64,000 nucleotides of DNA, from positions 62,001 through 126,000 of the forward strand of contig NZ_QYAD01000002.1 in NCBI RefSeq assembly GCF_016758255.1. The letters run 5' to 3'. The notes under the pieces are model-generated. The model was given only the letters and a program-made list of their open reading frames with translations. It had not been told where the DNA came from and did no database searches. This document shows, one piece after another, positions 7,885-56,760 of the stretch (the stretch's first letter is position 1; every line of letters begins with the position of its first letter). The position numbers and the translations under genes were made by a program. This DNA comes from Leucobacter chromiireducens subsp. chromiireducens. GTDB taxonomy: Bacteria > Actinomycetota > Actinomycetes > Actinomycetales > Microbacteriaceae.

Positions 7885-8862
7885 CTATGCGGCGAAGCGT
7901 GCGCGCTCGCGCTGCTTGCGGGCGTACTCGACCGCGGCCTCGCGCACCCACTCGCCCTCCTCGTGGGCGGTGCGGCGGTGGTCGAGGCGCTCGGCGTTGG
8001 CCGGGCCTCGGCCGTCGAGCACAGCCATGAACTCATCCCAGTCGATGGTGCCCGAGATCCACTGCCCGGTCTCCTCGTCGAAGCGCAGATCGGGATCGGG
8101 GCACTCAAGGCCGAGCGCCTCGAACTGCGGAACGCACATGCCCACGAAGCGCTGGCGCAGCTCGTCGTTCGAGAAGCGCTTGATCTTCCACGCCATCGAC
8201 TGCGCCGAGTTGGGAGAAGCGTCGTCACTCGGGCCGAACATCATAAGCGCCGGCCAGTACCAGCGGTTCACCGCGTCCTGGGCCATCTGCTTCTGCTCGG
8301 GGGTGCCGTGCGAGAGCTCGTAGAGGATCTCGAAGCCCTGGCGCTGGTGGAACGACTCTTCCTTGCAGATGCGCACCATGGCGCGACCATACGGGCCGTA
8401 GGATGCGCGGCAGAGCGGCACCTGGTTGCAGATTGCTGCGCCGTCGACGAGCCAGCCGATGGCGCCCATATCGGCCCAGGTGGGCGAGTGGTAGTTGAAG
8501 ATCGAGGAGTAGCGGGCCTTCCCGTCGATGAGCTTCTGCGTCATCTCCTCGCGGCTCACCCCGAGAGTCTGCGCCGCAGAGTAGAGGTAGAGGCCGTGCC
8601 CCGCCTCGTCCTGCACCTTTGCGATGAGGATGGCCTTGCGCTTCAGGCTCGGGGCGCGGCTGATCCAGTTCGCCTCGGGCTGCATACCGATGATCTCCGA
8701 GTGCGCGTGCTGCGAGATCTGGCGCACGAGCGTCGCGCGGTACTTCTCGGGCATCCAGTCACGCGGCTCGATGCGCTGGTCCGCCTCAATGATGGCGTCG
8801 AAGCGTGCCTGCTCCTCGAGCTCTGCCGGGCTCTGGGTCTCGGGTGTTGCCGTGTGTGCCAT
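7885..8862 (-). CDS. paaA: Phenylacetyl-CoA epoxidase catalytic subunit PaaA
   Basis: This is the 325-residue diiron oxygenase subunit. The iron-ligand motifs DEAGH (85-89) and EESFH (168-172) are both present, as is the conserved [17 protein letters not shown] block. It epoxidises the aromatic ring of phenylacetyl-CoA with O2 and electrons from PaaE. It is the first gene of the minus-strand operon. ATG 8862 has AAGGAGG upstream, and the promoter gap on its other side contains a PaaR-like operator at 8961-8982. Confidence 0.95.
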
Positions 8863-8960
8863 CTGCTGCCTCCTTGCGTCAGGGCTCTTCCGGTCTGCTC
8901 GCGCTGACGCCGGGGTGTCCCGGTCCAGCGCAAGGTGGTAGAGTTGCGGCCAGTTGAATT

Positions 8961-8982
8961 ACTTACCGAACATTCAGTGAGT
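8961..8982. promoter_or_regulatory. PaaR-type operator in the divergent paaA/paaI promoter
   Basis: This imperfect palindrome has arms ACTTACCGAA and TTCAGTGAGT with a 2-base spacer. As I recall it, the PaaR consensus reported for Corynebacterium glutamicum is ACTNACCG, N2, CG, N2, CGGTNAGT. This site differs at two of sixteen fixed positions. It sits in the 206-base gap between the divergent paaA and paaI genes, where a TetR-type repressor would control both operons. Confidence 0.7.
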
Positions 8983-9068
8983 ATAGTCTTCCTTGAGTAC
9001 GATCGCAACGGAGCACCGCCCCAGGGGTTCCCGCGCCGATCACGGATCCCCAACGCAATGGAGCGCAC

Positions 9069-9566
9069 ATGAGTTCACTGCCGAACCCGTCCACGGTCAC
9101 TGCCACGCAAGCGCCGCCGCGCGCGGAGTTGACCACAGCCGAGATCCCGCTCGATGCGAGCTGGTCTGCCACTGCGATGCTGCGCACCGATACGGCGAAG
9201 GAAGCGTTCGGTATTCGTGTACTCGAGCTTGAGCGCGGCCGAGCAGTGCTCGACATGCTGATTCGCGAGGACATGACGAACGGCTTCGGGATCGCGCACG
9301 GCGGCATGGTGTTCACCCTCGCCGATACCGCGTTCGCATACGCCTGCAATGAGGGCGAGAACGCCGTGGTGGCCTCGGGCGCCGACATTGCTTTCACCCG
9401 CGCAACGCACGCTGGCGACCTGCTCACGGCAGTGGCGGAGCGGCGCTGGCTCGCCGGCCGCAACGGACTGTACGACATCACCGTCACCGATCAGCACGGC
9501 GACACCGTTGCCGAGTTCCGCGGACGCTCGTTCGCGACCAACCGCGCACTCCCCGTCTCCGGCTGA
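9069..9566 (+). CDS. paaI: Hydroxyphenylacetyl-CoA thioesterase PaaI
   Basis: This 165-residue hotdog thioesterase has the canonical PaaI active-site block NGFGIAHGG (71-79) followed by the catalytic Asp in TLADTAFAYACN (about D86). PaaI hydrolyses ring-hydroxylated phenylacetyl-CoA dead-end products and so frees trapped CoA. ATG 9069 has GGAGCGC just upstream. It opens the plus-strand paaI-paaK-paaR unit, which is divergent from paaA. Confidence 0.9.
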   Translation: MSSLPNPSTVTATQAPPRAELTTAEIPLDASWSATAMLRTDTAKEAFGIRVLELERGRAVLDMLIREDMTNGFGIAHGGMVFTLADTAFAYACNEGENAVVASGADIAFTRATHAGDLLTAVAERRWLAGRNGLYDITVTDQHGDTVAEFRGRSFATNRALPVSG

Positions 9567-9654
9567 GCGCTCGGGCGCCCCCGCGCCCCGCCCCGCGAGC
9601 GCACACCGCTCACCCCACCCACGTGTCCACCGCCGCACACCTGAAAGAGGACCC

Positions 9655-10959
9655 ATGTCGACCACCTCACGCACGCTCGCCGAGATCGGACTGCACCCGG
9701 AGGAGCGCCTCGCGCGCCCCGAGCTGGAGCGCCTGCAGCTGCAGCGCCTGCAGTGGACCGTGCGCCACGCATATGAGAACGTGCCGTTCTACCAGCGTCG
9801 CTTCGACGAGGTCGGGGTGAGCCCCGAGGATATCCGCGAGCTGCGCGACGTTGAACGGCTTCCGTTCACCACGAAGAGCGACCTGCGCGACAACTACCCC
9901 TTCGGTCTGTTCGCCGTGCCGATGGATCAGGTGCGTCGCGTGCACGCGTCCTCGGGCACTACGGGCAAGCTCACCGTTGTCGGGTACACCGACCAAGATC
10001 TGGAGAACTGGGCGGACCTCATCGCCCGCTCGCTGTACGCCTCGGGCGTGCGTCCGGGGTGGAAGGTGCACAACGCCTACGGCTACGGGCTGTTCACCGG
10101 CGGCCTGGGGGCACACGCCGGGATCGAACGGCTCGGGTGCACGGTGATCCCGATGTCTGGCGGGCAGACGGAGAAGCAAGTGCAGCTGATCAACGACTTC
10201 CAGCCCGAGGCGATCATGTGCACGCCGAGCTACCTGCTGACGATCGCGGACGCGTTCGAGCGTGCCGGCCTCGACCCGCGCAAGTCGAGCCTGAAGGTGG
10301 CGATTCTCGGGGCGGAGCCCTGGACCGACTCGATGCGACAGGAGCTGGAGGCACGGCTCGACATCAAAGCCGTCGACATTTACGGGCTGTCCGAGATCAT
10401 GGGGCCGGGCGTCGGCAATGAGTGCGTCGAGACGCAGGATGGGCCGCACATCTGGGAGGACCACTTCCTGCCCGAGATTATCGATGAGGATCTCCGGCAG
10501 GTACCCGATGGGCAGCAGGGCGAGCTTGTCTTCACGACGCTCACGAAGGAAGCCTTCCCGATGATTCGGTACCGGACTCGGGATCTGACCTCGCTCGGCG
10601 CCGGCACCGCGCGGCCCGGTCACCGCCGCATCGCAAAGATCACGGGGCGCAATGACGACATGATCATCCTGCGCGGCGTGAACCTCTTCCCGACGCAGAT
10701 TGAGGAGATCGCGTGCGAGATCCCCGCGCTCACGCCGCACTTCATTCTTGAGCTGTCGCGCCGCGGCACGATGGACCACCTCGTCGTCAAGATCGAGCCG
10801 TCGATCGACGCTGGCCCGGCCGAGGCGGAGTCGGCCCTGCGTCTTCTGCAGAAGCGCATCAAAGATCGGGTGGGAACCTCCCTCGGCACCGAGCTTGTGG
10901 CGTGCGGCAGTCTGCCCCGCTCCGAAGGAAAGCTGAAGCGTTTGTACGACCTGAGGTAG
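9655..10959 (+). CDS. paaK: Phenylacetate-CoA ligase
   Basis: This 434-residue AMP-forming ligase activates phenylacetate with ATP and CoA, the first step of the pathway. Visible motifs are the P-loop-like SSGTTGKLTVVGYT, the adenylate-binding YGLSEIMGPG, the hinge TGRNDDMIILRGVNLFPTQ, and the C-terminal catalytic-lysine segment SEGKLKRL. The frame is open further upstream (to 9349, inside paaI), but ATG 9655 with GAAAGAGG gives the family length and start MSTTSRTLAEIGL. It lies 88 bases after paaI. Confidence 0.95.
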   Translation: MSTTSRTLAEIGLHPEERLARPELERLQLQRLQWTVRHAYENVPFYQRRFDEVGVSPEDIRELRDVERLPFTTKSDLRDNYPFGLFAVPMDQVRRVHASSGTTGKLTVVGYTDQDLENWADLIARSLYASGVRPGWKVHNAYGYGLFTGGLGAHAGIERLGCTVIPMSGGQTEKQVQLINDFQPEAIMCTPSYLLTIADAFERAGLDPRKSSLKVAILGAEPWTDSMRQELEARLDIKAVDIYGLSEIMGPGVGNECVETQDGPHIWEDHFLPEIIDEDLRQVPDGQQGELVFTTLTKEAFPMIRYRTRDLTSLGAGTARPGHRRIAKITGRNDDMIILRGVNLFPTQIEEIACEIPALTPHFILELSRRGTMDHLVVKIEPSIDAGPAEAESALRLLQKRIKDRVGTSLGTELVACGSLPRSEGKLKRLYDLR

Positions 10960-13756: not shown

Positions 13757-15886
13757 CTACGCCGCGCGCCGGATCAGCCACACGAAGTATGGTGCGCCGA
13801 TCAACGCGATCATGAGCCCCGCGGGGAGCTGCGACGGGGCGATCAGCGTGCGGCCGAGCGTGTCTGCGACAAGCACCAGTAGCGACCCAATGAGCATCGC
13901 GGCCGGCATGATCCGCGCGTGGCGCGCCCCCACCAGCGTGCGGGCAAGGTGTGGAGCGACGAGGCCAACAAAACCCACGGTGCCGACCGCCACCACCGCA
14001 ACTGCGGCGAGCAGCGCGGCGAGTGCGAGCAGCCCGATCCGCGTGCGCTGCGGCTGGAGGCCCAGAATGCGCGGCGTGTCCTCGTCGATCGCGAGCAGGT
14101 CCAGCCGTCGGTGCATCGCGAAGAGCAGCGGCGCAACAACGATCAGCACGAGCGCAACCGGGATCACGTCGCCGAGCGACCTGCCATACGTCGTGCCGGA
14201 GAGCCACGTCAGAATACGCGGCGTCTCCCACGGTTCTGAGCGCAGCAGCAGGAAGGCCGTGACGGCGCTCAGTGCGTAGCTCGCGCCGATTCCCACCAAC
14301 ACATACCTGTCGGGGAGGAGCCCGCCGCGCATCGCAAGCAACGTGATGATGCAGAAGGTCGCGAGGCCAGCAAAGACGGCCATCGCGATGAGCATCGGGC
14401 GGCCCCCACCACCGATCCCGGTGGTCACGACGATCACGGCGCCGAGGCCGGCGCCCGCGGTGATACCGAGCAAGCTGGGTTCGGCAAGCGGGTTGCGCAC
14501 CGTCCCCTGCACCACCACGCCCGAGAGCGCGAGTGCGGCGCCCGCGAGGGTGGCCGCGGCGACGCGCGGTCCACGCTCGTCAAAGGCTCGGGCCACAAGA
14601 TCAGGGGCACTCTGGTTCACCCACAGTGCGATATCGCCAAGCTTGAGCCACATGCTGCCCGCGAGCATGCCGATGAGCAGCATGCCGATGAGCAGCGCGC
14701 CGGCGATAGCGACGACCACGAGAAAGTGCTTCCGCGTGCGCAGTGCCGAGCGCACGGTCTCCGCGATCCGCGCCGTGCCCGCATCGCGCATGCGAAGCGC
14801 GAGCAAGATGATGACGATGCCGCCGAGCAGCGCGGTGGGGATCCCGGTCGGGATCGCGGTCGCGCCTTCCGCGCCGAGCAGCGCCCGCAATGCCACGTCG
14901 GCGAGCAAGATGAGGAGGGCCCCGGCGAGCGCCGACGCCGGGATGAGCAGAGTGTGGCGGTAGAGCGCGGGGACCCGGTGTGCAACCAGGCGGACCAGCA
15001 CCGGGGCGCCGAGACCCACGAAAGCGATCGGCCCCGCGACGGTCACCGAGATGCTCGTCAGGAGGACCGCGCAGAGCACCGCGACGGTCCGTGTGGAGCG
15101 GACGGGGACGCCGACCGCGGCGGCAGCATCCTCGCCCAGCCGCAGCACGTCCAGGCGGCGCGCGATGAGCAGCGCGACGATGATGGCGGCGACGATGATG
15201 GGGGTCGCGCGCAGGGATGCATCGATGTTCAGCTGCGCGAGCGAGCCGCTGCCCCAAGCGAAGAGCCCGGTGGTGTTCTCCTTGAACAAGATGAGCAGCA
15301 TGGCCGTCGCCGCATCAAGCGCCATGGCGACGGCGGAGCCCGCAAGGATGAGCCGCGTCGTCATCGTGCCGGCCCCGCGGCCCGTCACCCCGAGGACAAC
15401 CGCCGCCGCCAGCAGGCCCCCGACGAACGCGACACCGCTCGACGCCCAGAACGGCACGCTCAGGCCGAAGGCCGCGACCGCGGCAAGCGCGAAGTACGCG
15501 CCGGCACTGACCGCAAGCGTGTCCGGAGAGGAGAGTGGATTGCGGGTGACCGACTGGAGGAGCGCGCCCGCGGCGCCCAGCGCACAGCCGACCGCGATCC
15601 CCGCGCAGAGCCGTGGCAGGCGGGAACCCATGAACACGTCGTGCACGGACACGCCACCCACGTGCAGTTCCGCGCCGAACAGCCCACGGACGAGCTCTCC
15701 CGGCGTGAGCCCCGAACTGCCTTGGGTGAGGTGCCAGACCCCCACGGCGAGCACCGCGACGAGGAGGACGAGGATGACCCCGATCCCGCTCGCAGAATTG
15801 CTTGAGGGCACGCGGGAAACCCGGCGACGCGCCACCCCCGACTCGGGGCGGCGCGTCGCCGGGTTCGGCGCGGGAGCTGTGATCAC
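13757..15886 (-). CDS. Siderophore ABC permease, two FecCD domains fused (FhuB-like)
   Basis: This 709-residue membrane protein contains two copies of the FecCD/BtuC permease. Each copy has the family signatures: LPRLCAGIAVGCALGAAGALLQ with NPLSSPDTLAVSAGAY in the first half, and GPRVAAATLAGAALALSG with NPLAEPSLLGITAGAG in the second. The EAA-like FVGLGAPVLVRLV and FVGLVAPHLARTLVG cytoplasmic loops end each half. GTG 15886 overlaps the stop of the upstream lipoprotein gene (GTGA), which supports this start over one 23 codons earlier. It forms the channel for ferric siderophore uptake. Confidence 0.9.
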   Translation of the reverse strand: MITAPAPNPATRRPESGVARRRVSRVPSSNSASGIGVILVLLVAVLAVGVWHLTQGSSGLTPGELVRGLFGAELHVGGVSVHDVFMGSRLPRLCAGIAVGCALGAAGALLQSVTRNPLSSPDTLAVSAGAYFALAAVAAFGLSVPFWASSGVAFVGGLLAAAVVLGVTGRGAGTMTTRLILAGSAVAMALDAATAMLLILFKENTTGLFAWGSGSLAQLNIDASLRATPIIVAAIIVALLIARRLDVLRLGEDAAAAVGVPVRSTRTVAVLCAVLLTSISVTVAGPIAFVGLGAPVLVRLVAHRVPALYRHTLLIPASALAGALLILLADVALRALLGAEGATAIPTGIPTALLGGIVIILLALRMRDAGTARIAETVRSALRTRKHFLVVVAIAGALLIGMLLIGMLAGSMWLKLGDIALWVNQSAPDLVARAFDERGPRVAAATLAGAALALSGVVVQGTVRNPLAEPSLLGITAGAGLGAVIVVTTGIGGGGRPMLIAMAVFAGLATFCIITLLAMRGGLLPDRYVLVGIGASYALSAVTAFLLLRSEPWETPRILTWLSGTTYGRSLGDVIPVALVLIVVAPLLFAMHRRLDLLAIDEDTPRILGLQPQRTRIGLLALAALLAAVAVVAVGTVGFVGLVAPHLARTLVGARHARIMPAAMLIGSLLVLVADTLGRTLIAPSQLPAGLMIALIGAPYFVWLIRRAA

Positions 15887-32432: not shown

Positions 32433-33608
32433 TTGGCTGATCGGGAGACACGGCACGCAGAGCTGGCAGAGCGATTCCTGCCAACGGAGCTCATGGAGCG
32501 GATCCGGGGCCGCGCGGCGCAGACTGATCGGGCGAACGAGTTCTTCACTGAGGACCTCGCCGAGCTGCGAGAGCAGGGGTACCTCACCGTGCTCGTGCCC
32601 GAGGAGTTCGGCGGACCGGGCCTCACCCTGCACGAGGTGTCGCGCTTGCAGCGGCGTCTCGCCGGTGCCGCCCCGGCCACCGCGCTCGCGGTCAACATGC
32701 ACCTGATGTGTACAGGGGTGGCGCGTGCGCTGCGTGAGCGCGGAGACCACTCGCTCGACGGCGTGTTCGCCGAGGCGATGGCGGGCGAGATCTTCGCGTT
32801 TGGCATCAGCGAGCCCGGCAACGATTTCGTGCTGAGCGACTCGACCACCGCCGCAGTGCCGCAGGCTGATGGCGGGTACCGGCTCACGGGCACCAAGATC
32901 TTTACCTCGCTCTCGCCCGTCTGGACGAGGCTGATGACTCATGGCGTCGACGAGAGTGACCCCGATGTGCGCACGCTCGTCTACGGCTTTGTGACACGCG
33001 ATACCCCGGGAATCACCGTGTCCGATCGTTGGGACGTGCTCGGCATGCGTGCCTCGCAGAGCCGGGCGACGAGGCTCGACGACGTTGAGCTGGCCGCGGA
33101 CCGCGTGGTGCGCCGCTTGTCGGTCGGCCCCGATCCCGATCTCCTCACCTTCGCGATCGCCGCGAACTTCCAGCTGCTCATCGCCTCGGTGTACGCGGGA
33201 GTCGCTCGGCGTGCCCTCGACGTCGCGGCCGAGGGACTGCGCGCGCGTCGCTCAGCGAAGGCGGGCACGACGCTCGCCGAGGTGCCGGAGCACCGTGTGC
33301 GCCTCGCCGATGCGCACCTCGAGTTCCTCGCGGTGCCCGCCCTGCTCGACTCGACCACGCGCGACTTCGACGAGCTGGTGAATCACGGGGCCGGCTGGTC
33401 GCCGCGGCTCGTGGGCACGCGCCTGCACGCGACGACCGCCGCGCGGCGCATGGCCGAGGTCGCGTTGCTGTGCGCCGGGGGCTCCGGCTTCGACTCGGGG
33501 CACGAGGCAAGCCGCCTGTACCGCGACGCGGCGGCGGGGATGTTTCATCCGCCCGCAGCCGATGCCGCGCGCCCGCTCTTTGCCGCGGCGTTGTTGGACG
33601 AACAGTAG
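32433..33608 (+). CDS. Acyl-CoA dehydrogenase-fold flavoprotein, catalytic Glu apparently missing
   Basis: This 391-residue protein has the acyl-CoA dehydrogenase N-terminal helical domain (VLVPEEFGGPGLTL), the middle FAD-contacting block (FGISEPGNDFV; YRLTGTKIFTSLSP) and the C-terminal helices. At the usual place of the catalytic base, after YRDA, the EGT motif is replaced by HPP. This suggests an atypical dehydrogenase or a flavin monooxygenase of the same fold. The start is TTG 32433 with AGAAGGAG upstream. It is divergent from carbonic anhydrase and stands alone, so the substrate is unknown. Confidence 0.82.
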   Translation: MADRETRHAELAERFLPTELMERIRGRAAQTDRANEFFTEDLAELREQGYLTVLVPEEFGGPGLTLHEVSRLQRRLAGAAPATALAVNMHLMCTGVARALRERGDHSLDGVFAEAMAGEIFAFGISEPGNDFVLSDSTTAAVPQADGGYRLTGTKIFTSLSPVWTRLMTHGVDESDPDVRTLVYGFVTRDTPGITVSDRWDVLGMRASQSRATRLDDVELAADRVVRRLSVGPDPDLLTFAIAANFQLLIASVYAGVARRALDVAAEGLRARRSAKAGTTLAEVPEHRVRLADAHLEFLAVPALLDSTTRDFDELVNHGAGWSPRLVGTRLHATTAARRMAEVALLCAGGSGFDSGHEASRLYRDAAAGMFHPPAADAARPLFAAALLDEQ

Positions 33609-49544: not shown

Positions 49545-50135
49545 CTAGAGCGCGTGCTGCATTGCTGGGGTTCCCAGCCGACGTACCGCAGGTCCAGATA
49601 TCCCGGGTACTGCGGAAAGCAGCCAGGCCTCACCGTTCAGAATGCGGGGTGCAGGCTCGCCACTCAACTCGGAGAGTGCCGCGCGGATGAGTGCGCCGTG
49701 CGCGATGACGATGCTTCCCGGCGCCTCTCGGAGCTGGCGAGTGAAGGCCGCCGCTCCACGCTGGGCGAGCGGGACGAGACCCTCTGCCTCTGGAATATCG
49801 AGTCCCGGCCAGCGGGCGGTGACCTCACTGACCTGCAGGCCTTCCGCCGGTCCGAAGTCGCGCTCCGTGACAGCGTCGTCAATTTCTGGAGTAGCGAGCC
49901 CAAGCCGCTCCGCGATGATCTGGCCGGTGGCGACGGCGCGTCCAAGCGGGGACACCACGACCCGAGACCAGCGACCTGAGACCGCGAGAAGATCGGCGAT
50001 CTCGCCGGCCTGCGCCCGCCCCCGCTCATTGAGCGGGATGTCGGTGCGGCCCTGGATGCGGCGGCCGATATTCCAGTCCGTCTCGCCGTGGCGCACGATG
50101 ACGATGGACGCAGCGGGGGGCGACGAGGTACTCAT
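49545..50135 (-). CDS. Histidine phosphatase (phosphoglycerate-mutase fold)
   Basis: This 196-residue phosphatase has the catalytic RHG motif at 15-17 (IVIVRHGETDWN) and the second His in IVIAHGALIRAAL. Its small size fits broad-specificity phosphatases such as CobC/PhoE rather than glycolytic mutase. ATG 50135 overlaps the stop of the ABC ATPase gene (ATGA). It is therefore the last gene of the importer operon and probably acts on the imported or a derived phosphate ester. Confidence 0.88.
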   Translation of the reverse strand: MSTSSPPAASIVIVRHGETDWNIGRRIQGRTDIPLNERGRAQAGEIADLLAVSGRWSRVVVSPLGRAVATGQIIAERLGLATPEIDDAVTERDFGPAEGLQVSEVTARWPGLDIPEAEGLVPLAQRGAAAFTRQLREAPGSIVIAHGALIRAALSELSGEPAPRILNGEAWLLSAVPGISGPAVRRLGTPAMQHAL

Positions 50136-51259
50136 GCCCCCACGCTAGTCGGTTCTGCCTGCGAGCTCGCGTGGGCGGCGCGCTGCGCCAGATCAGGCCC
50201 GAACACGAGGGCTTGATCAATGTGAACGCGCACCCGCTCGCCAGCGGCGCAACGAGCGCCACTTTCCCTGGACCGAAACTGCAACTCACCCCAGCGTACG
50301 ACGAGCTCATCGCCGCTTCGACCGAACAGCGAGGACTCCACGACGGCGGGTCCTGCGGGATCGGGTACGACGCGCACGTGCTCCGGCAGGACCGCGATCT
50401 CCACTGCACGGTCTCCAGCAGTGTCTCCCCGGTTCGTGAGGTCTCTCTCAGTGGAGAGCTGCTCCGCCGAGAGCTCGATCGGGAAGCCGCTCGCTCGGAA
50501 GCCGCCTGCTGCGAGTGTGCCGGGCAGCACAGCTGCATCTGAGATAAAGCGCGCCACGAAGGGAGAAGCTGGCCGATCGACGAGCTCGCTCGGCGTGCCG
50601 ATCTGCTGCACCCTGCCTGCGTCGAGCACGACGACGCGGTCGGCGAGGGCGAGCGCCTCGCTACGGTCGTGCGTAACATGGATCACGGTGAGCCCGAGGC
50701 TGCGGGTGAGCGCACGGAGCTCCAAACGGAGCCGATCGCGCAGGGGCTCGTCGAGGGCTGAGAGCGCCTCGTCGAGGAGCAGCACCCGGGGTCGACCCAC
50801 GATCGCTCGGGCGATAGCGACGCGTTGGCGCTGACCACCCGAGAGCGTCGCGGGATCGCGGCGTTCGGCGCCTCCGAGTCCCACCAGCTCGAGCGCCTCG
50901 GCCACCCGACGAGCACGCTCCGCCCGGCCGACACCCGCCCGACGGAGCGGATACTCGATGTTGCGGCCCACATTCCAGTGGGGCCACACCGCGTGCTGCT
51001 GAAACACCATGCCGAGGCCTCTCCGCTCTGGCTCAACGTCGCGCCCCGCCCCTGCGACCTCGGTTTCGCCGATCCGCACGCTGCCCGCCGTGGGCGAGAT
51101 GAAGCCAGCGACCGTGCGCAGCAGTGTCGTCTTCCCCGAGCCGGAGGGGCCAACGAGGGCGACGAACTCGCCATCGCCGATGTCGAGATCGACGTCGGCG
51201 AGCCCGAGGTGCCCACCAGGGTAGGCGAGGCTGACGGAGGTGAGGGAGACGGATGACAC
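50132..51259 (-). CDS. ATP-binding protein of an AfuC/FbpC/PotA-type importer
   Basis: This 375-residue ATPase has Walker A GPSGSGKT, signature LSGGQRQRVAIARAI, Walker B RVLLLDEALSALDEP and the H-loop IHVTHDRSEALALADR. The C-terminal 110 residues form a TOBE-like regulatory domain (VAVLPEHVRVVPDP-type sequence). GTG 51259 lies 8 bases past the permease stop and has AGGA upstream; the open frame to 51511 lies within the permease gene. It powers the fused permease of this operon. Confidence 0.9.
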   Translation of the reverse strand: MSSVSLTSVSLAYPGGHLGLADVDLDIGDGEFVALVGPSGSGKTTLLRTVAGFISPTAGSVRIGETEVAGAGRDVEPERRGLGMVFQQHAVWPHWNVGRNIEYPLRRAGVGRAERARRVAEALELVGLGGAERRDPATLSGGQRQRVAIARAIVGRPRVLLLDEALSALDEPLRDRLRLELRALTRSLGLTVIHVTHDRSEALALADRVVVLDAGRVQQIGTPSELVDRPASPFVARFISDAAVLPGTLAAGGFRASGFPIELSAEQLSTERDLTNRGDTAGDRAVEIAVLPEHVRVVPDPAGPAVVESSLFGRSGDELVVRWGELQFRSRESGARCAAGERVRVHIDQALVFGPDLAQRAAHASSQAEPTSVGA

Positions 51260-51267
51260 GATCGGTC

Positions 51268-52962
51268 CTAACGCTGGGTACGTGCGGTGAAGCTGAGGCC
51301 GACGAGGCCGACCACGGCGACGATGAGGGAGAGCGCCGACGAGGCGTTGTACGCGCCCGCCTGTTGCAGGTTGAAGATGACGACGCCGAGGGTCTGCGAG
51401 CCGGGGGAGAGGAGCAGCACTGACAGGGTCAGCTCGCGCACCGCGGTCAGCGCGACGAGCACGGCGCCCGAGATCGCGGCGGGCACCGCCATCCGGCAGG
51501 AGATGTCCCACAGCGCACGGAGCCGGGAGGCACCGGAGAGCCGGGCCGCCTCCTCGGCGGTCGTGGGGATCCCCGAGAGTGGCGCGTGGACTGATTGCAC
51601 CACGAGGGCGAGGAAGGAAGTGAGATATGCGCAGAGGATCAGCCAGGGGGTGTTGTACAGGCCAATCCGCGGCGCGATCAGCAGCCAGGCGACGGCGATG
51701 ACGAGTCCCGGGATCGCCTGCGGCAGGAGCGAGATGCCGAGGAGTGCCGCGTTGCCGCGGAGACGCGTGCGTGTGACGATCGTACCGATCCCGAGGCCGA
51801 GTACCCCACAGCCGAGCGCGGCGAGCGTGGCCAGCATGAGCGAGTTGCCGATGCCCTGGAGCGTGCCCGAAGCGGCGAGCGCACGCTCGAAGCTCGCGAG
51901 TGTGATTGTCTCCGGTGTGAGCGGCACACCGGGGGCGGGGAGGAGCGCCTGGATTGCGAGCGTGATGAGGGGGAGCACGGTGACCGCGAGAACAATCACG
52001 ACGGTGATCACCGCGATCGGGCCGCGGGCTCGCCCAAGCGGGAGCAATGCCGGCGCGCCGGCCTGAGCGTCGAGTTCGACGCGTGTACGCGAGCGCAGCA
52101 GATCGACGATGACGCCGAGGAGCGCGATCATGAGCAGAACGAAGCCGATCGCGGCGACCACAGCGAGGGGATCCTCGACGGTGCCGGACTGGAGATAGCG
52201 GTATACGAGCGTGGAGAGCGTCACGTAACGCTCGGGCAGTCCGATGATCGAGGGGATGCCGAAGTCAGCAAGGTTTGAGACTGCGATGAGTGTGAACGCT
52301 GAGAGCATCGCGGGGCGAAGGAGCGGAGTGGTTACCTCCCAGAGTGCGCGCGGTGCGGAGGAGCCCGCGATTCGTGCAGCTTGCTCGAGGTCAGCGGGAA
52401 TCCGGCGGAGCGCGGCGGTGACGATCATCATCGCGATGGGGAAGCTGTGCAGCGTAAGCAGGAAGACGACGCCGTCGCCGCCATAGAGGTTCCAGAGCGG
52501 GGTCCCGAAGCGGGCCGTCCAGAACGTGTTCACCGCCGAGGCAGGGCCGAGCAGGCTGAGCCAGGCGATTGCGCCGACGAACGGGGGCATGAGCATGGGG
52601 CTCAGCGCAAGGAGCCTGAGCGCGCGCCGCCCAGGGAGGTCAGTGCGCTCCAGGAGGAGCGCGAGCAGGGTGCCGATGACTACCGCGAGGATGCCCGAGG
52701 CGGTCGCAGACACGAGCGAGTTGGCTGCGGCAGTGAGCACATCGGGATCGGCGAGTGCCGTCCAGCCACCGCCGCTCGCTGCGAGCAGGACGACCGCACC
52801 AATCGGCACGAGGACGAGCGCGCTGACTGCGCACCACAGCACGAGACGGGTGACGTCAAAGCCATCGAAGCGCCGCCCCGCGCCGGTGCGCGGCCTGCGG
52901 GCCCGGTCGGTGATGACCGGGCCCGCAGGGATGCGCTCCTGCGTGCTACTGGAAGAGACCAT
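51268..52962 (-). CDS. Fused two-domain ABC permease (AfuB/FbpB-like)
   Basis: This 564-residue protein has twelve or so membrane helices in two homologous halves. Each half ends in an EAA loop that meets the ATPase: DLEQAARIAGSSAPRALWEV, and TAEEAARLSGASRLRALWDI. The fused form is typical of ferric-iron, 2-aminoethylphosphonate and hexose-phosphate (AfuABC) importers. ATG 52962 overlaps the lipoprotein gene by 17 bases; longer readings run inside that gene. Confidence 0.9.
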   Translation of the reverse strand: MVSSSSTQERIPAGPVITDRARRPRTGAGRRFDGFDVTRLVLWCAVSALVLVPIGAVVLLAASGGGWTALADPDVLTAAANSLVSATASGILAVVIGTLLALLLERTDLPGRRALRLLALSPMLMPPFVGAIAWLSLLGPASAVNTFWTARFGTPLWNLYGGDGVVFLLTLHSFPIAMMIVTAALRRIPADLEQAARIAGSSAPRALWEVTTPLLRPAMLSAFTLIAVSNLADFGIPSIIGLPERYVTLSTLVYRYLQSGTVEDPLAVVAAIGFVLLMIALLGVIVDLLRSRTRVELDAQAGAPALLPLGRARGPIAVITVVIVLAVTVLPLITLAIQALLPAPGVPLTPETITLASFERALAASGTLQGIGNSLMLATLAALGCGVLGLGIGTIVTRTRLRGNAALLGISLLPQAIPGLVIAVAWLLIAPRIGLYNTPWLILCAYLTSFLALVVQSVHAPLSGIPTTAEEAARLSGASRLRALWDISCRMAVPAAISGAVLVALTAVRELTLSVLLLSPGSQTLGVVIFNLQQAGAYNASSALSLIVAVVGLVGLSFTARTQR

Positions 52963-53986
52963 TGAACGTCTGCACGGCGTCAGCCTGCGTGGCGCGGATC
53001 TGCTCAAGTTCGGGGGTGAGGAACTCGATATCGGAGATTGCCGGTGCGCCCTCTGGGCTCGCGACGTCCTCGCGGATCGGAAGGTACGACTGAGAAGCCG
53101 CGATTTCCTGGCCCTCTGCACTGATGAGGAAGTCGACGAAGAGCTTCGCTGCCTCGGGCTGCTCGGTGTCCGCAAAGATTCCGACGGGCTGTGAGACGAA
53201 CGGCACGCCCTCACTCGGGTAGACCGCTGCGATGGGGGAACCGGCGGCTGCGAGATCCCGCACGAGCGAGTCCACGACGATCCCGACCGGGCTGCTGCCA
53301 TCGGCGACCGCCTGCGAGACGGGGCCGTTGCTCTCCGCGATCAAGGGCGTGTTCTTGGCGAGGCCCTCGAGCCAGCTCAGACCGAGAGCCGGGGTATCGA
53401 GCCACACCGCGGCGTTGTAGGCCGCGGCGCCCGAGACATCGGGGTTCGGCATCGCGATCTTGCCCGCGTACTGGGCATCGGTGAGATCGGCCCACGACTT
53501 GGGGGCGTCGGTAATCACGTTGGTATTCACGGCGATCACCGTCGGGATCAGGCGTGTGCCCACGTAGAAGTGCTCGGCGTCGATGAGGTCCTGGCGGATC
53601 TCCTTCGCCTCGGGCGACGCGTACTCGAGCAGCAGGTCGCGTTCGGCGTAGTCTTCGAAAGTGCCGGCATCGGCAGCGAGCAGCAGGTCCGCACCGATTT
53701 CGCCAGCCTTCTCCTCGGTTGCGATGCGCGCCGTGAGATCGCCCGTGCCCGCGCGGAACACGTCGACCGTGATCTCGGGGTGGTGCACGTTGAACGCGGC
53801 GATGACCGCGTCGATCTTCTCCTGGGGCTCCGACGTGTAGAGCGTAATGGTGGAAGACTCAGCTGCGGCGCCGGACTCTGCCGGGGCCTGGGAACCTGCG
53901 GCATCGGGTGCAGAGGAGCACCCGGTGAGGGCGAACGCCCCGAGGACGAATGCGGCGAGGACGCCGGTGGTGCGATTACGAGACAT
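52946..53986 (-). CDS. AfuA/FbpA-like solute-binding lipoprotein
   Basis: This 346-residue lipoprotein has lipobox ALTGC (C23) and the class II binding fold (TITLYTSEPQEKIDAVIAAF; NPDVSGAAAYNAAVWL; FLISAEGQEIAASQSYLPIR). Ferric-binding FbpA proteins ligate iron through an adjacent Tyr-Tyr pair. No Tyr-Tyr pair occurs anywhere in this protein, so a non-iron ligand such as a phosphate ester is more likely. It overlaps the metallophosphoesterase gene upstream by 11 bases and the permease gene downstream by 17. Confidence 0.88.
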   Translation of the reverse strand: MSRNRTTGVLAAFVLGAFALTGCSSAPDAAGSQAPAESGAAAESSTITLYTSEPQEKIDAVIAAFNVHHPEITVDVFRAGTGDLTARIATEEKAGEIGADLLLAADAGTFEDYAERDLLLEYASPEAKEIRQDLIDAEHFYVGTRLIPTVIAVNTNVITDAPKSWADLTDAQYAGKIAMPNPDVSGAAAYNAAVWLDTPALGLSWLEGLAKNTPLIAESNGPVSQAVADGSSPVGIVVDSLVRDLAAAGSPIAAVYPSEGVPFVSQPVGIFADTEQPEAAKLFVDFLISAEGQEIAASQSYLPIREDVASPEGAPAISDIEFLTPELEQIRATQADAVQTFNGLFQ

Positions 53987-54791
53987 GAGTCGCTTTCTGT
54001 GCGGGTCTGGAGATGGGTTGGGTGAACAGGGGATCGGGGGAGTGCAGCGCGATCGCCGAGGCGCTCACTCCGTCGCTCGTGATCTGCACGAGCGAAAACA
54101 TGGGGGAGTCGTGCCCGGCCACGGCATCGGGCCCCGCGTCCATGACCTGGTGATAGGCGAGCGAGGGGCCCACGAAGACGGGGATCCCCTGCACCGACGC
54201 CGACAGGCTGTGGTGGTAGTGCCCGGCGAGGATCGCCCGCACGTCGGAGCCGCGCAGCAGTTCGAGTAGGGCGTCTGCGTTCGCAAGTCCCTGCCTGCGC
54301 AGAGTCGGCAGCGGGGATGCGAGCGGTGCATGGTGCAGCGCGATCACGGTGCCGCGCTCGGCGGGCCGCGCCAGTTCTCCGGCGAGCCAGTCGAGCTGCG
54401 CGGAATCAAGTGCTCCCGTGTGTGAATCGAGCCGGATCACCCGGGTGCCGTCAATGTTGTGCGCGGCGAAGTGTCCCGTGGCGTGGTGATCGAGTGCGCG
54501 TGCCGCGACTGGGTCATCGTGGTTGCCGAGCACCGTGAGTACAGGGGAGCCGAGCCGCTCCTCGAGCCCCCGGCATGCCGCGGCCACTGCCGCGTAGGCG
54601 CCGGGATTGCCGCGCTCGATCAGATCGCCCGTGATGAGTACCAGTTCCGGGGTGACCCCCGCGGTCAACGCATAGTCGCCCACCCGCTCGATGCGGCCCG
54701 CGCCGTCCACCGAGCCGTAGAGCAGGCCGGTCTCCGTTGCGTGCACATCGCTGAGATGCAGCACCGTGAAGCGCCCTGTGTCGCGACTCAC
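53976..54791 (-). CDS. Calcineurin-like metallophosphoesterase
   Basis: This 271-residue phosphoesterase has the full dimetal set: D15 and H17 in LSDVH, D56 in ITGDLIERG, GNHD at 89-92, His in IALHHAPL, and GHYHH near 190. It resembles CpdA/GpdQ-type enzymes that act on cyclic nucleotides or glycerophosphodiesters. No signal peptide is seen, so it is cytosolic. It overlaps its neighbours on both sides, so it is translated with the importer. Confidence 0.9.
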   Translation of the reverse strand: MSRDTGRFTVLHLSDVHATETGLLYGSVDGAGRIERVGDYALTAGVTPELVLITGDLIERGNPGAYAAVAAACRGLEERLGSPVLTVLGNHDDPVAARALDHHATGHFAAHNIDGTRVIRLDSHTGALDSAQLDWLAGELARPAERGTVIALHHAPLASPLPTLRRQGLANADALLELLRGSDVRAILAGHYHHSLSASVQGIPVFVGPSLAYHQVMDAGPDAVAGHDSPMFSLVQITSDGVSASAIALHSPDPLFTQPISRPAQKATHVS

Positions 54792-55486
54792 GCGGTGGTC
54801 CCCGCTCCAAGCAGGCGGGCTGCACGCGCGCGAAGTGACCGGAACTGCTCATCCGTTGCTCCATGCGTCCTGAGATACGTCTCTGGCCCTCCGAATGTGT
54901 CGATCAGCTCGAGTGCACTTTCGAGCGCCTCGGCGGGACTGTCGAGGTGGAGCCGCTCGGCGGCGGCTCGCTCGGCGCCGCTCAGCGCGAGCGCATCAAG
55001 CTGCGCGGTTGCGATGCCCGACCGTGCCGGCCGCACTGTGCGGCCCGAGTGTGCGTAGTCGGCCACGATCGCCTCGCGATCATCGCCGGCCACCAGGCGC
55101 GCAAGCGCTACGACGAGCCCCGTGCGGTCTTTCCCCGCGGTGCAGTGCACCGCGACGACTCCGGGGTGTTCCGCGATTGCCCCGACTGCGGCCGCGATCC
55201 GGGATCCGCGATCTCGGACGAGGCCCGTGTACACACCCTCGAGCGAGCCCGCGGCAGGCGGGGCCTCGCCGTACAGGGGTGTGGAGCGGACCGGAAGCCC
55301 GTGAGTGCGCGGACCGTGCTCCTCGGGCTCACGGAGGTCGATCACGAGGTCAACCCCGAGCGTGCGGAGGGTGCGCTCGCCGCCGGCGCTGAGCCCGTCG
55401 AGCGACGCGGTGCGCACGAGCCATGGAGTCTTCTCCGAGCCCACGCTCCGTGCGTTGTAGCTGCCCTCGAGTGGAATGACGTGCAC
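54788..55486 (-). CDS. Tyrosine-phosphatase-like CX5R phosphatase
   Basis: This 232-residue phosphatase carries the P-loop HCTAGKDRTG with nucleophile C115 and R121. It also has the N-terminal block YNARSVGSEK and IDLREPEEHG typical of the bacterial PtpB-like family, which acts on phosphotyrosine, phosphoinositides or sugar phosphates. It is the first gene of the importer operon, 199 bases downstream of the RpiR gene, and overlaps the metallophosphoesterase start by ATGA. Confidence 0.88.
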   Translation of the reverse strand: MHVIPLEGSYNARSVGSEKTPWLVRTASLDGLSAGGERTLRTLGVDLVIDLREPEEHGPRTHGLPVRSTPLYGEAPPAAGSLEGVYTGLVRDRGSRIAAAVGAIAEHPGVVAVHCTAGKDRTGLVVALARLVAGDDREAIVADYAHSGRTVRPARSGIATAQLDALALSGAERAAAERLHLDSPAEALESALELIDTFGGPETYLRTHGATDEQFRSLRARAARLLGAGTTA

Positions 55487-55527
55487 TGCTCAGAACTCCT
55501 ACCGGTTGCTGCTCGTTACATCGAGCG

Positions 55528-55542
55528 TGAAATTTGATTACA
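55528..55542. promoter_or_regulatory. Possible RpiR operator upstream of the phosphatase-importer operon
   Basis: TGAAAT, 3 bases, ATTACA is a palindrome with one mismatch, close to the TGAAA/TTTCA form common for MurR/RpiR sites. It lies 42-56 bases before the first operon gene, in the only AT-rich part of the 199-base gap. Confidence 0.4.
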
Positions 55543-55685
55543 TGAGCAGCTTCCCGGGCCGAGGTGTCGCCTCGGTGAACTCCGTGAGGCGGCCGCGTGG
55601 ACGTTCGCGGAAGGGCGCGCAACGCGGGCGGAGAACGGGCACGACGGAGGCTTCGTGCTCGCGTCGTCGAGCTGTGTGATGCCGC

Positions 55686-56540
55686 CTAAGCGCGGGGCTC
55701 TGCGAGAGCGTCTGCGACGACCTCGCGCATGTCGAGCGTGTCGCTTGGTGTGACGAGCGCGGATACTTCGGCGATGAGTGCTTGCAGGAGGACCGAGTGT
55801 CCGAGCCGGCTGAAGAACGGGTCGACCGTGTGCTGCGCACCGATCATCCCGGTCGAGAGCGTCACGTCAGCCAGATCACCGAGCGGCGAGCGGGCGTAGC
55901 TACTGAGCGCGATGATTCGCGCCCCACGTTTGCGGGCGGCGCGCACCGTCGCGAGGGTGTGAGCGTTCGCGCCCGAGTGGCTGAGGGCAAGGCAAACGTC
56001 GTGAGGACCGGTGCTATGCGCGGCGAACTGTTGCGCGAGAATGTCGAGCGGCGCTTCGACGGGACGACCGATGGTAGCGAAGCGCATGGCCGCATCCTGC
56101 AGAGGAGGAGCGGAGAAGCCGTTCGCCGAGCAGACCACGCGGGAAGCGCCGACGAGGATCGTCGCGGCCTCGGAGAGCGCAACGCGATCGATGGCCTGCT
56201 GCCCCACAAGCAGCGCCGTGCGCGCGTGCGCGAACACCGCGTCAACGGCGTCACCCGTCACTGGAATTTCCACGGGCGTCGCGGCATTCTCACGTGCGAG
56301 TTCAAGCCGGAGGTGCTGGAATCCGCGGAATCCGAGTCTCTGGCATGCACGGATGACCGTGGCGGTCGATGTTCCGGCTGCGGAGGCGAGCTCCTGCGTC
56401 GACCACTGCGGGATCTCACCCGGCCGGTCGAGAATCACCCGGGCCACCGCCCCCTCACTCTGGCCGAGGCCACCGGCAACAGCGCGGATCAGCGCGAGGG
56501 CCGAACCGTCAGGGTGCGCGTGGGTGAGGGGGGCTGGCAT
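55686..56540 (-). CDS. MurR/RpiR-family regulator with SIS domain
   Basis: This 284-residue regulator has an N-terminal HTH_6 domain (WSTQELASAAGTSTATVIRA) and a C-terminal SIS domain (about 115-260; LALSHSGANAHTLATVRAARKRGARIIALS). SIS domains bind phosphorylated sugars, so RpiR proteins usually sense a sugar phosphate. It lies upstream of and in the same direction as the phosphatase/ABC importer operon. It is the likely regulator of that operon. Confidence 0.9.
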   Translation of the reverse strand: MPAPLTHAHPDGSALALIRAVAGGLGQSEGAVARVILDRPGEIPQWSTQELASAAGTSTATVIRACQRLGFRGFQHLRLELARENAATPVEIPVTGDAVDAVFAHARTALLVGQQAIDRVALSEAATILVGASRVVCSANGFSAPPLQDAAMRFATIGRPVEAPLDILAQQFAAHSTGPHDVCLALSHSGANAHTLATVRAARKRGARIIALSSYARSPLGDLADVTLSTGMIGAQHTVDPFFSRLGHSVLLQALIAEVSALVTPSDTLDMREVVADALAEPRA

Positions 56541-56760
56541 GCGTTCACCGTAGGGCGCCCGGGTGAACGAGAAGTGGCGGGGAGCTTGCGGACAGGCGGC
56601 GGGGTGGCGGCGCGGGTTCCCCGCTCAACTGGCGGGCACCGGATCGCGGATCCCGGCCTTGCACGCCTCTGGCGAACAACCGCCCATAGAGCCGTCAGCT
56701 CGCATACCCTGGGTACATCGACGAACTCGCGCCCCGGCGGGTTTGTCTGGGAGGTTATAG

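Follow-up and report, generated by a model that had tools for sequence, protein, structure and literature searches.

Bacteria often obtain phosphorus from organic esters, which are frequently hydrolyzed outside the cell. Several ATP-binding cassette (ABC) importers take up such esters intact, and here we describe a locus of Leucobacter chromiireducens subsp. chromiireducens that probably belongs with them. The locus lies in a 64,000-nucleotide stretch (the window; contig NZ_QYAD01000002.1, positions 62,001 to 126,000) of a 3.22-Mb genome and comprises a gene for an RpiR-family regulator and a run of six genes encoding three phosphatases and an importer, the latter made up of a substrate-binding protein (SBP), a fused permease and an ATPase. 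We propose, with a probability of about 0.68, that this is an uptake-and-mineralization operon that would import an intact organophosphate under phosphate starvation and hydrolyze it in the cytoplasm. The proposal rests on the conserved linkage of the genes, a fusion of two of the enzymes, a PHO-box-like site and an RpiR operator, a Ugp-like importer accompanied by enzymes of the same kinds, and an SBP in which Fe(III) ligands are lost and most phosphate-contact positions are kept.

Among described systems, the hexose-phosphate importer AfuABC/VcA0625 also imports an intact phosphate ester, and its SBP shares with the window SBP the fold group (about 21-23% identity) and four filled phosphate-site positions. 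The window SBP departs from AfuA at other residues, detailed below, and the window operon has phosphatases and a PHO-box-like site. UgpABCE of Mycobacterium tuberculosis is reported to be a glycerophosphodiester transporter that is raised on regX3 overexpression (PMC12722247). The window operon would similarly link the import of an intact phosphate ester to phosphate starvation, and its ATPase resembles UgpC. However, the window SBP falls outside the CUT1 type and has no UgpB model among its matches, the permease is fused where UgpA and UgpE are separate, and the operon includes hydrolases and an RpiR gene. In Phaeobacter, phosphate stress is reported to raise the levels of a "sugar" ABC importer and of a predicted phosphodiesterase, which have neighboring locus tags (MED193_11288-11308; PMC10132767). 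Like our locus, it places a phosphodiesterase gene close to an ABC importer, and both go up there at low phosphate, but it comes from another phylum, the accessible part of the source mentions neither a CX5R nor a histidine phosphatase, and the comparison is at the level of gene descriptions. GpxB, a glycerol-1-phosphate importer of the PhnT family, and UgpB are reported to transport the same ester without being related (PMC12718374), a precedent for such sharing of a cargo, although GpxB belongs to another SBP clade and no such phosphatase set is described in the portion of that source available to us. Finally, the putative aminoethylphosphonate importer PhnS2/PhnU2/PhnT2 provides the best curated models for the window SBP and permease, with every window protein below cut-off. 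A preliminary description of this stretch knew of no described system with this set of three phosphatases, and a search of one open-access library likewise returned no description of the gene set.

Operon layout and conservation in relatives

The preliminary description had reported an RpiR/SIS regulator and a tight run of six genes. Open reading frame coordinates and Pfam agree, with the RpiR gene placed 199 bases upstream, outside the overlapping run. On the minus strand, the run spans 55486-49545. The genes for the CX5R phosphatase and the metallophosphoesterase overlap by 4 bases, the latter overlaps the lipoprotein (SBP) gene by 11 and the lipoprotein gene overlaps the permease gene by 17; an 8-base gap then precedes the ATPase gene, which overlaps the histidine phosphatase gene by 4. 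The 199-base gap between the RpiR and CX5R phosphatase genes holds both control sites. Gene names are confirmed by Pfam matches above cut-off: HTH_6 and SIS, Y_phosphatase3, Metallophos, SBP_bac families, BPD_transp_1 (two stretches), ABC_tran and His_Phos_1. The RpiR-family protein, in which the SIS-motif residues S189 and G190 are at least 95% conserved, is likely the local regulator of the operon.

Gene order is kept across several actinobacterial families, and the distribution of the importer is patchy. An SBP ortholog (at least 55% identity) is present in 17 of 199 family genomes, our own included, with the next matches at no more than 34%. Orthologs occur in 20 of 54 genomes of the genus, and the SBP profile found 5 of 396 genomes in a phylum sample at an E value of 1e-60. 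From a scan of named genomes, we took the best 80 of 103 relatives and dropped one mislabeled locus, leaving 79, many of them closely related, so that the counts below are not independent events. To be counted, a gene had to share the strand of the SBP gene and lie no more than 6,500 bases from it. By binding protein, Leucobacter sp. PH1c (94%) is the nearest named relative.

At least one of the three phosphatases stands beside the importer in 58 of the 79 loci, and all three do in 43. Taken singly, the metallophosphoesterase is present in 56, the CX5R phosphatase in 53 and the histidine phosphatase in 44, and the RpiR gene in 50. Phosphatase-bearing loci occur in Microbacteriaceae, Micrococcaceae and Nocardiaceae, and in Actinomycetaceae with the phosphodiesterase alone. 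Because linkage and order are conserved across relatives, the gene set is more than a chance cluster.

Table. Coordinates of the operon and its control sites (window positions) and of the complete second cassettes (positions in each locus)
Feature	Position	Strand	Basis
RpiR-family regulator (HTH_6 + SIS)	55686..56540	-	Pfam HTH_6 59.4 bits, SIS 37.2 bits
PHO-box-like direct repeat GTTCACC-N4-CGACACC	55563..55580	-	First half exact, second half 4/7 positions
RpiR-type operator GTAAY-N3-RTTYCA-N7-TGNAAC	55515..55541	-	Sole exact match in genome
CX5R phosphatase (Y_phosphatase3, MptpB-like)	54788..55486	-	Pfam 125.5 bits
Putative class III (Rv0805/GpdQ-like) metallo-phosphodiesterase	53976..54791	-	Pfam Metallophos 60.7 bits
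Substrate-binding lipoprotein, type II periplasmic binding protein, AfuA/FbpA/PhnS2 group	52946..53986	-	Models, alignments, fold search
Fused double permease, PhnU2-like	51268..52962	-	Two BPD_transp_1 stretches; PhnU2 151.3 bits, below cut-off 593.25
Importer ATPase, UgpC/PhnT2-like	50132..51259	-	ABC_tran; UgpC 280.8/432 and PhnT2 280.5/457.7 bits, both below cut-off
Histidine phosphatase (branch 1)	49545..50135	-	His_Phos_1; best model alpha-ribazole phosphatase, below cut-off
Complete second cassettes	L221:5539-12628, L222:5704-12729, L229:1590-9288, L232:3872-11818

Other observations concern individual loci (numbered with L). The dropped locus, L081, is labeled Vibrio cholerae and carries the RpiR gene, three phosphatases and the importer in actinobacterial order; the assembly is probably mislabeled or contaminated. 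L091 and L092, two contigs of one Cryobacterium melibiosiphilum assembly, encode identical binding proteins. In L096 (Candidatus Agrococcus pullicola), a PHO4-family phosphate transporter gene (13943-14896) follows the ATPase gene, and a gene of equal length occupies that place in L133. In L075 (Microbacterium paludicola), which has no phosphatases, a Mutator-family transposase gene (8520-9875) lies directly upstream of the SBP gene. The scanned neighbors of importer-only copies belong to MarR, MFS, copper, Usp, Hsp70, transposase and similar families and gave no clue to the ligand. In the window, Rfam returned no matches, and a tRNA-like sequence called by ARAGORN with a four-base anticodon (32588-32685) is probably spurious.

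Enzymes, their fusion and a second cassette

To check catalytic residues, we aligned 54 CX5R phosphatases, 55 metallophosphoesterases and 44 histidine phosphatases, the window proteins included, and called positions conserved at 95% or above. The P-loop of the CX5R phosphatase (H114-C115 and G118-K119-D120-R121-T122-G123) is conserved, as are R15-H16, E91 and H146 of the histidine phosphatase and D15, H17, D56, N90, H91, H154, H191 and H193 of the metallophosphoesterase. Class III phosphodiesterases have a metal site of the form D-x-H, GD, GNHD, H and GHxH, and the metallophosphoesterase carries the residues of this Rv0805/GpdQ pattern. Its nearest solved chains are Icc/Rv0805 (E value about 5e-38), followed by a "phosphohydrolase" chain (2e-8) that we take to be GpdQ. 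The best NCBIfam model, SpdA, scores far below cut-off (76.9/400 bits). The nearest solved chain to the CX5R phosphatase is PtpB of M. tuberculosis (E value 2e-12). Inspection by eye found no signal peptides on the enzymes, which should therefore be cytoplasmic. A GDPD family search of the genome gave two matches, both elsewhere than the operon, so the operon may not be the genome's only such capacity.

Four Rhodococcus loci encode the CX5R phosphatase and phosphodiesterase in a single frame of 490-497 amino acids. Both domains were matched by Pfam in L109, a single match runs through the frame in L112, and length together with both matches identifies the fusion in L114 and L123. These four loci form one clade of the SBP tree (support 97/90).

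We then used the fused enzyme to sample 296 genomes of the class and the genomes that carry 14 loci, of which 12 are importer-only. It revealed a second type of operon, with an RpiR gene, a UgpC-like ATPase, a CUT1-type binding protein, a CX5R phosphatase, an Rv0805-like phosphodiesterase and UgpA/UgpE-like permeases. All seven genes are present in L221 (Rhodococcus rhodnii), L222 (Rhodococcus jostii), L229 and L232. In L223 (M. paludicola), L230, L231, L233 and L234 part of the set went undetected or was cut off, and L235 and L236 lack the CX5R phosphatase. The R. rhodnii ATPase passes the UgpC model (456 bits, cut-off 432), and the R. jostii binding protein is weakly UgpB-like (44/411 bits). 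The same enzyme types and regulator type thus accompany two unrelated importers.

We built a phosphodiesterase tree from window-type rows (30 of the 55 aligned), second-type rows (14 of 15 chosen) and 20 standalone rows. The window-type rows fall to the same side of one branch (100/99), the second-type rows require two changes, and three rows are on long branches. This suggests that the phosphodiesterase was recruited separately into the two cassettes; an ancestral link with losses is also compatible with the tree.

Control sites upstream of the operon

The PHO box is reported to consist of two 7-nucleotide repeats with a 4-nucleotide spacer, the most conserved motif in Streptomyces coelicolor being GTTCACC (PMC4415409). 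The pattern GTTCACC-N6-WCACC, written after the window site was seen, has four exact matches in the genome, of which two fall inside genes, one is the window site and one lies upstream of pstS. With one mismatch allowed, it has 73 matches compared with 12 in a reversed control. Among the matches listed for the full consensus, the genome's four best (0-1 mismatch) are one upstream of pstS, one in the interval from a two-component system to phoU, one flanked by genes for a PHO4-family transporter and a glutaredoxin, and one within a gene. Because the best matches stand upstream of pstS and near phoU and the PHO4-family transporter, the motif is very likely this organism's own PHO box. Searching 10 genomes with the full consensus at up to two mismatches was too loose and was set aside (our own genome, among the matches listed, 45 versus 9 in the reversed control).

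We compared 48 promoter regions, namely the window and 47 loci, L081 included. The best PHO-like score averages 10.6 of 14 (opposite strand, 8.5; reversed sequence, 8.3), and 29 of the 48 regions exceed 100 shuffles (P < 0.05). A slightly looser form of the RpiR operator occurs with at most two mismatches in 42 of 48 regions and in none of 48 reversed controls; the pattern was drawn from these same regions, making the count descriptive. Elsewhere in the genome, beyond the operon's own exact match, the operator has two matches at two mismatches (control, one match), which offered no clue to the ligand. Upstream of the SBP gene in 21 other importer copies (20 importer-only copies and L099, where RpiR and phosphodiesterase genes lie further upstream), the operator has at least five mismatches and the PHO-like site averages 9.5 versus 8.2. 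Second-cassette promoters are mixed: PHO-like matches, without shuffle comparison, reach 12 of 14 in a 710-base gap in L236, 11 in L230 and 10 in L221 and L232, and the best RpiR operator has three mismatches (L222).

An inverted repeat, GTTCACC-N12-GGTGAAC (56543-56568), lies just upstream of the RpiR start and is perhaps a second PHO-like site. GTTCACC or GTTCACG occurs at the same place in 6 of the 18 loci shown (L054-L057, L059 and L061).

Binding protein, candidate cargo and proposed role

We modeled the lipoprotein, whose Cys23 is at least 95% conserved, from a 49-row alignment (predicted local distance difference test score, 88.6). By sequence, its closest solved relatives are 8x1a (by title a glucose 6-phosphate-binding protein, VcA0625), P5PA and AfuA. 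P5PA is reported to hold phosphate at the N-termini of three helices, and the phosphate in AfuA to be surrounded by S37, G38, T60, S148, G149, T150 and G185 (PMC8427247). In our model, helices start at 81, 186 and 220, and T81, S185, G186 and N220 are invariant. S37, G38, S148 and G149 of AfuA align with T81, G82, S185 and G186, all at least 95% conserved. Mutation of H205, D206 or E229 is reported to abolish binding by AfuA (PMC4546632). H205 falls on S240 in the pairwise and V238 in the profile alignment, and E229 on V264 in both. The alignments disagree over D206, which falls on L241 (pairwise) or the invariant D239 (profile), so that at most one of the three sugar residues is kept.

A phosphodiester has about an even chance of being the ligand, favored by the fused enzyme and the Ugp-like partner importer; a glycerophosphodiester in particular is a tentative and somewhat doubtful choice. 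The operon might alternatively import phosphomonoesters such as hexose phosphates in the manner of AfuABC, with phosphatases that merely free phosphate and no phosphodiester involved. The nearest solved relatives and the alignment of D206 with D239 speak for this, as does the fact that SIS domains of RpiR proteins bind sugar phosphates. We nevertheless consider it rather unlikely: the phosphodiesterase beside the importer in 56 loci would be without a task, and the loss of H205 and E229 in both alignments rules out a hexose-phosphate importer in the strict AfuA sense. The enzymes could instead serve signaling, as a phosphotyrosine phosphatase and a cyclic-nucleotide phosphodiesterase, or the cargo could be a cyclic nucleotide from RNA decay. 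PtpB and Rv0805 are the nearest solved relatives, and SpdA, the best model although below cut-off, is reported to be a 2',3'-cyclic nucleotide phosphodiesterase. We judge this improbable, since signaling would hardly account for linkage to two unrelated importers, though the cargo may still be a 2',3'-cyclic nucleotide.

Import of iron or a metal complex, suggested by the fold group and several chain names, fares worse still. A Foldseek search with the model returned first the metal-citrate-binding MctA and FutA1, then VcA0625 and AfuA. At the positions of the Fe(III) ligands of FbpA, which we take to be H9, E57, Y195 and Y196, the lipoprotein has P54, A105, S240 and L241, with no adjacent tyrosines; position 240 is tyrosine in most relatives, so that at most one of the four ligands is kept. 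This residue comparison is limited to FbpA. These aligned positions led us to reject an iron importer, for which the linkage to phosphatases and the PHO-like site leave hardly any room. A 2-aminoethylphosphonate importer is very improbable as well. Among NCBIfam models, the lipoprotein and permease match PhnS2 and PhnU2 best, but scores fall far below cut-off (PhnS2, 124.4/392.75; PhnU2, 151.3/593.25; PhnT2, 280.5/457.7 bits), and to our knowledge no operon gene belongs to a family that cleaves carbon-phosphorus bonds. Cut-offs and gene content together ruled this candidate out.

Several observations weigh against the uptake-and-mineralization operon that we propose. The importer has no adjacent phosphatase in 21 of the 79 loci; one of these, L100, runs into a contig end, and the remaining 20 have full context (16 in Rhodococcus or Rhodococcoides), so the cassette need not accompany the importer. 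Each phosphatase is absent from some loci, although L060, L084, L096, L097 and L103 are also short and absent genes there may not be losses. Two Cryobacterium contigs have the CX5R phosphatase with no phosphodiesterase detected. An adjacent CX5R phosphatase-phosphodiesterase pair occurs elsewhere in just 2 of the 12 importer-only genomes searched, as a complete second cassette in R. rhodnii and a partial one in M. paludicola; in the other 10 no such pair was seen. The window box matches 11 of 14 positions of the full PHO consensus (three mismatches), and the shorter pattern was written with that site in view. Nineteen of the 48 regions score no better than their shuffles, and the fused-enzyme Rhodococcus operons score 7-9. 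In the lipoprotein, D106 and A187 replace the AfuA phosphate contacts T60 and T150, and, since the best fold matches bind metal-citrate or iron, fold alone does not name the ligand. The preliminary description had claimed intact import followed by dephosphorylation, a claim that would fall if the phosphatases were not conserved with the importer. Phosphatases at 58 loci, four fusions, the PHO-like site, the loss of Fe(III) ligands and the Ugp-like partner support it; the 20 phosphatase-free importers and the phosphatases missing singly keep that conservation from being clean.

We infer the enzyme activities and the order of steps in the proposed operon from sequence. Under phosphate scarcity, the promoter would be activated at the PHO-box-like repeat, as the site suggests, by a PhoP/RegX3-type response regulator. 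The RpiR protein would act at its operator, its SIS domain presumably responding to a phosphorylated compound. The lipoprotein would capture organic phosphate outside the cell, and the fused permease and ATPase would import the compound intact. Once in the cytoplasm, a phosphodiester would be turned into a monoester by the class III metallo-phosphodiesterase, and from that monoester the CX5R phosphatase, helped by the histidine phosphatase, would free phosphate.

More broadly, the odds seem evenly balanced that a modular cassette (an RpiR sensor of an intermediate, a CX5R phosphatase and a class III phosphodiesterase) has been joined to two unrelated actinobacterial ABC importers, so that under phosphate starvation phosphodiesters are taken up whole and cut inside the cell and not by secreted enzymes. 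If true, importing the whole ester and cleaving it with an internal phosphodiesterase and two phosphomonoesterases would hide phosphate from neighbors and save the organic part. The "iron" and "phosphonate" names that similarity suggests for these importers would need correction, and MptpB-like and Rv0805-like enzymes, usually discussed in signaling or virulence, would have a nutritional role.

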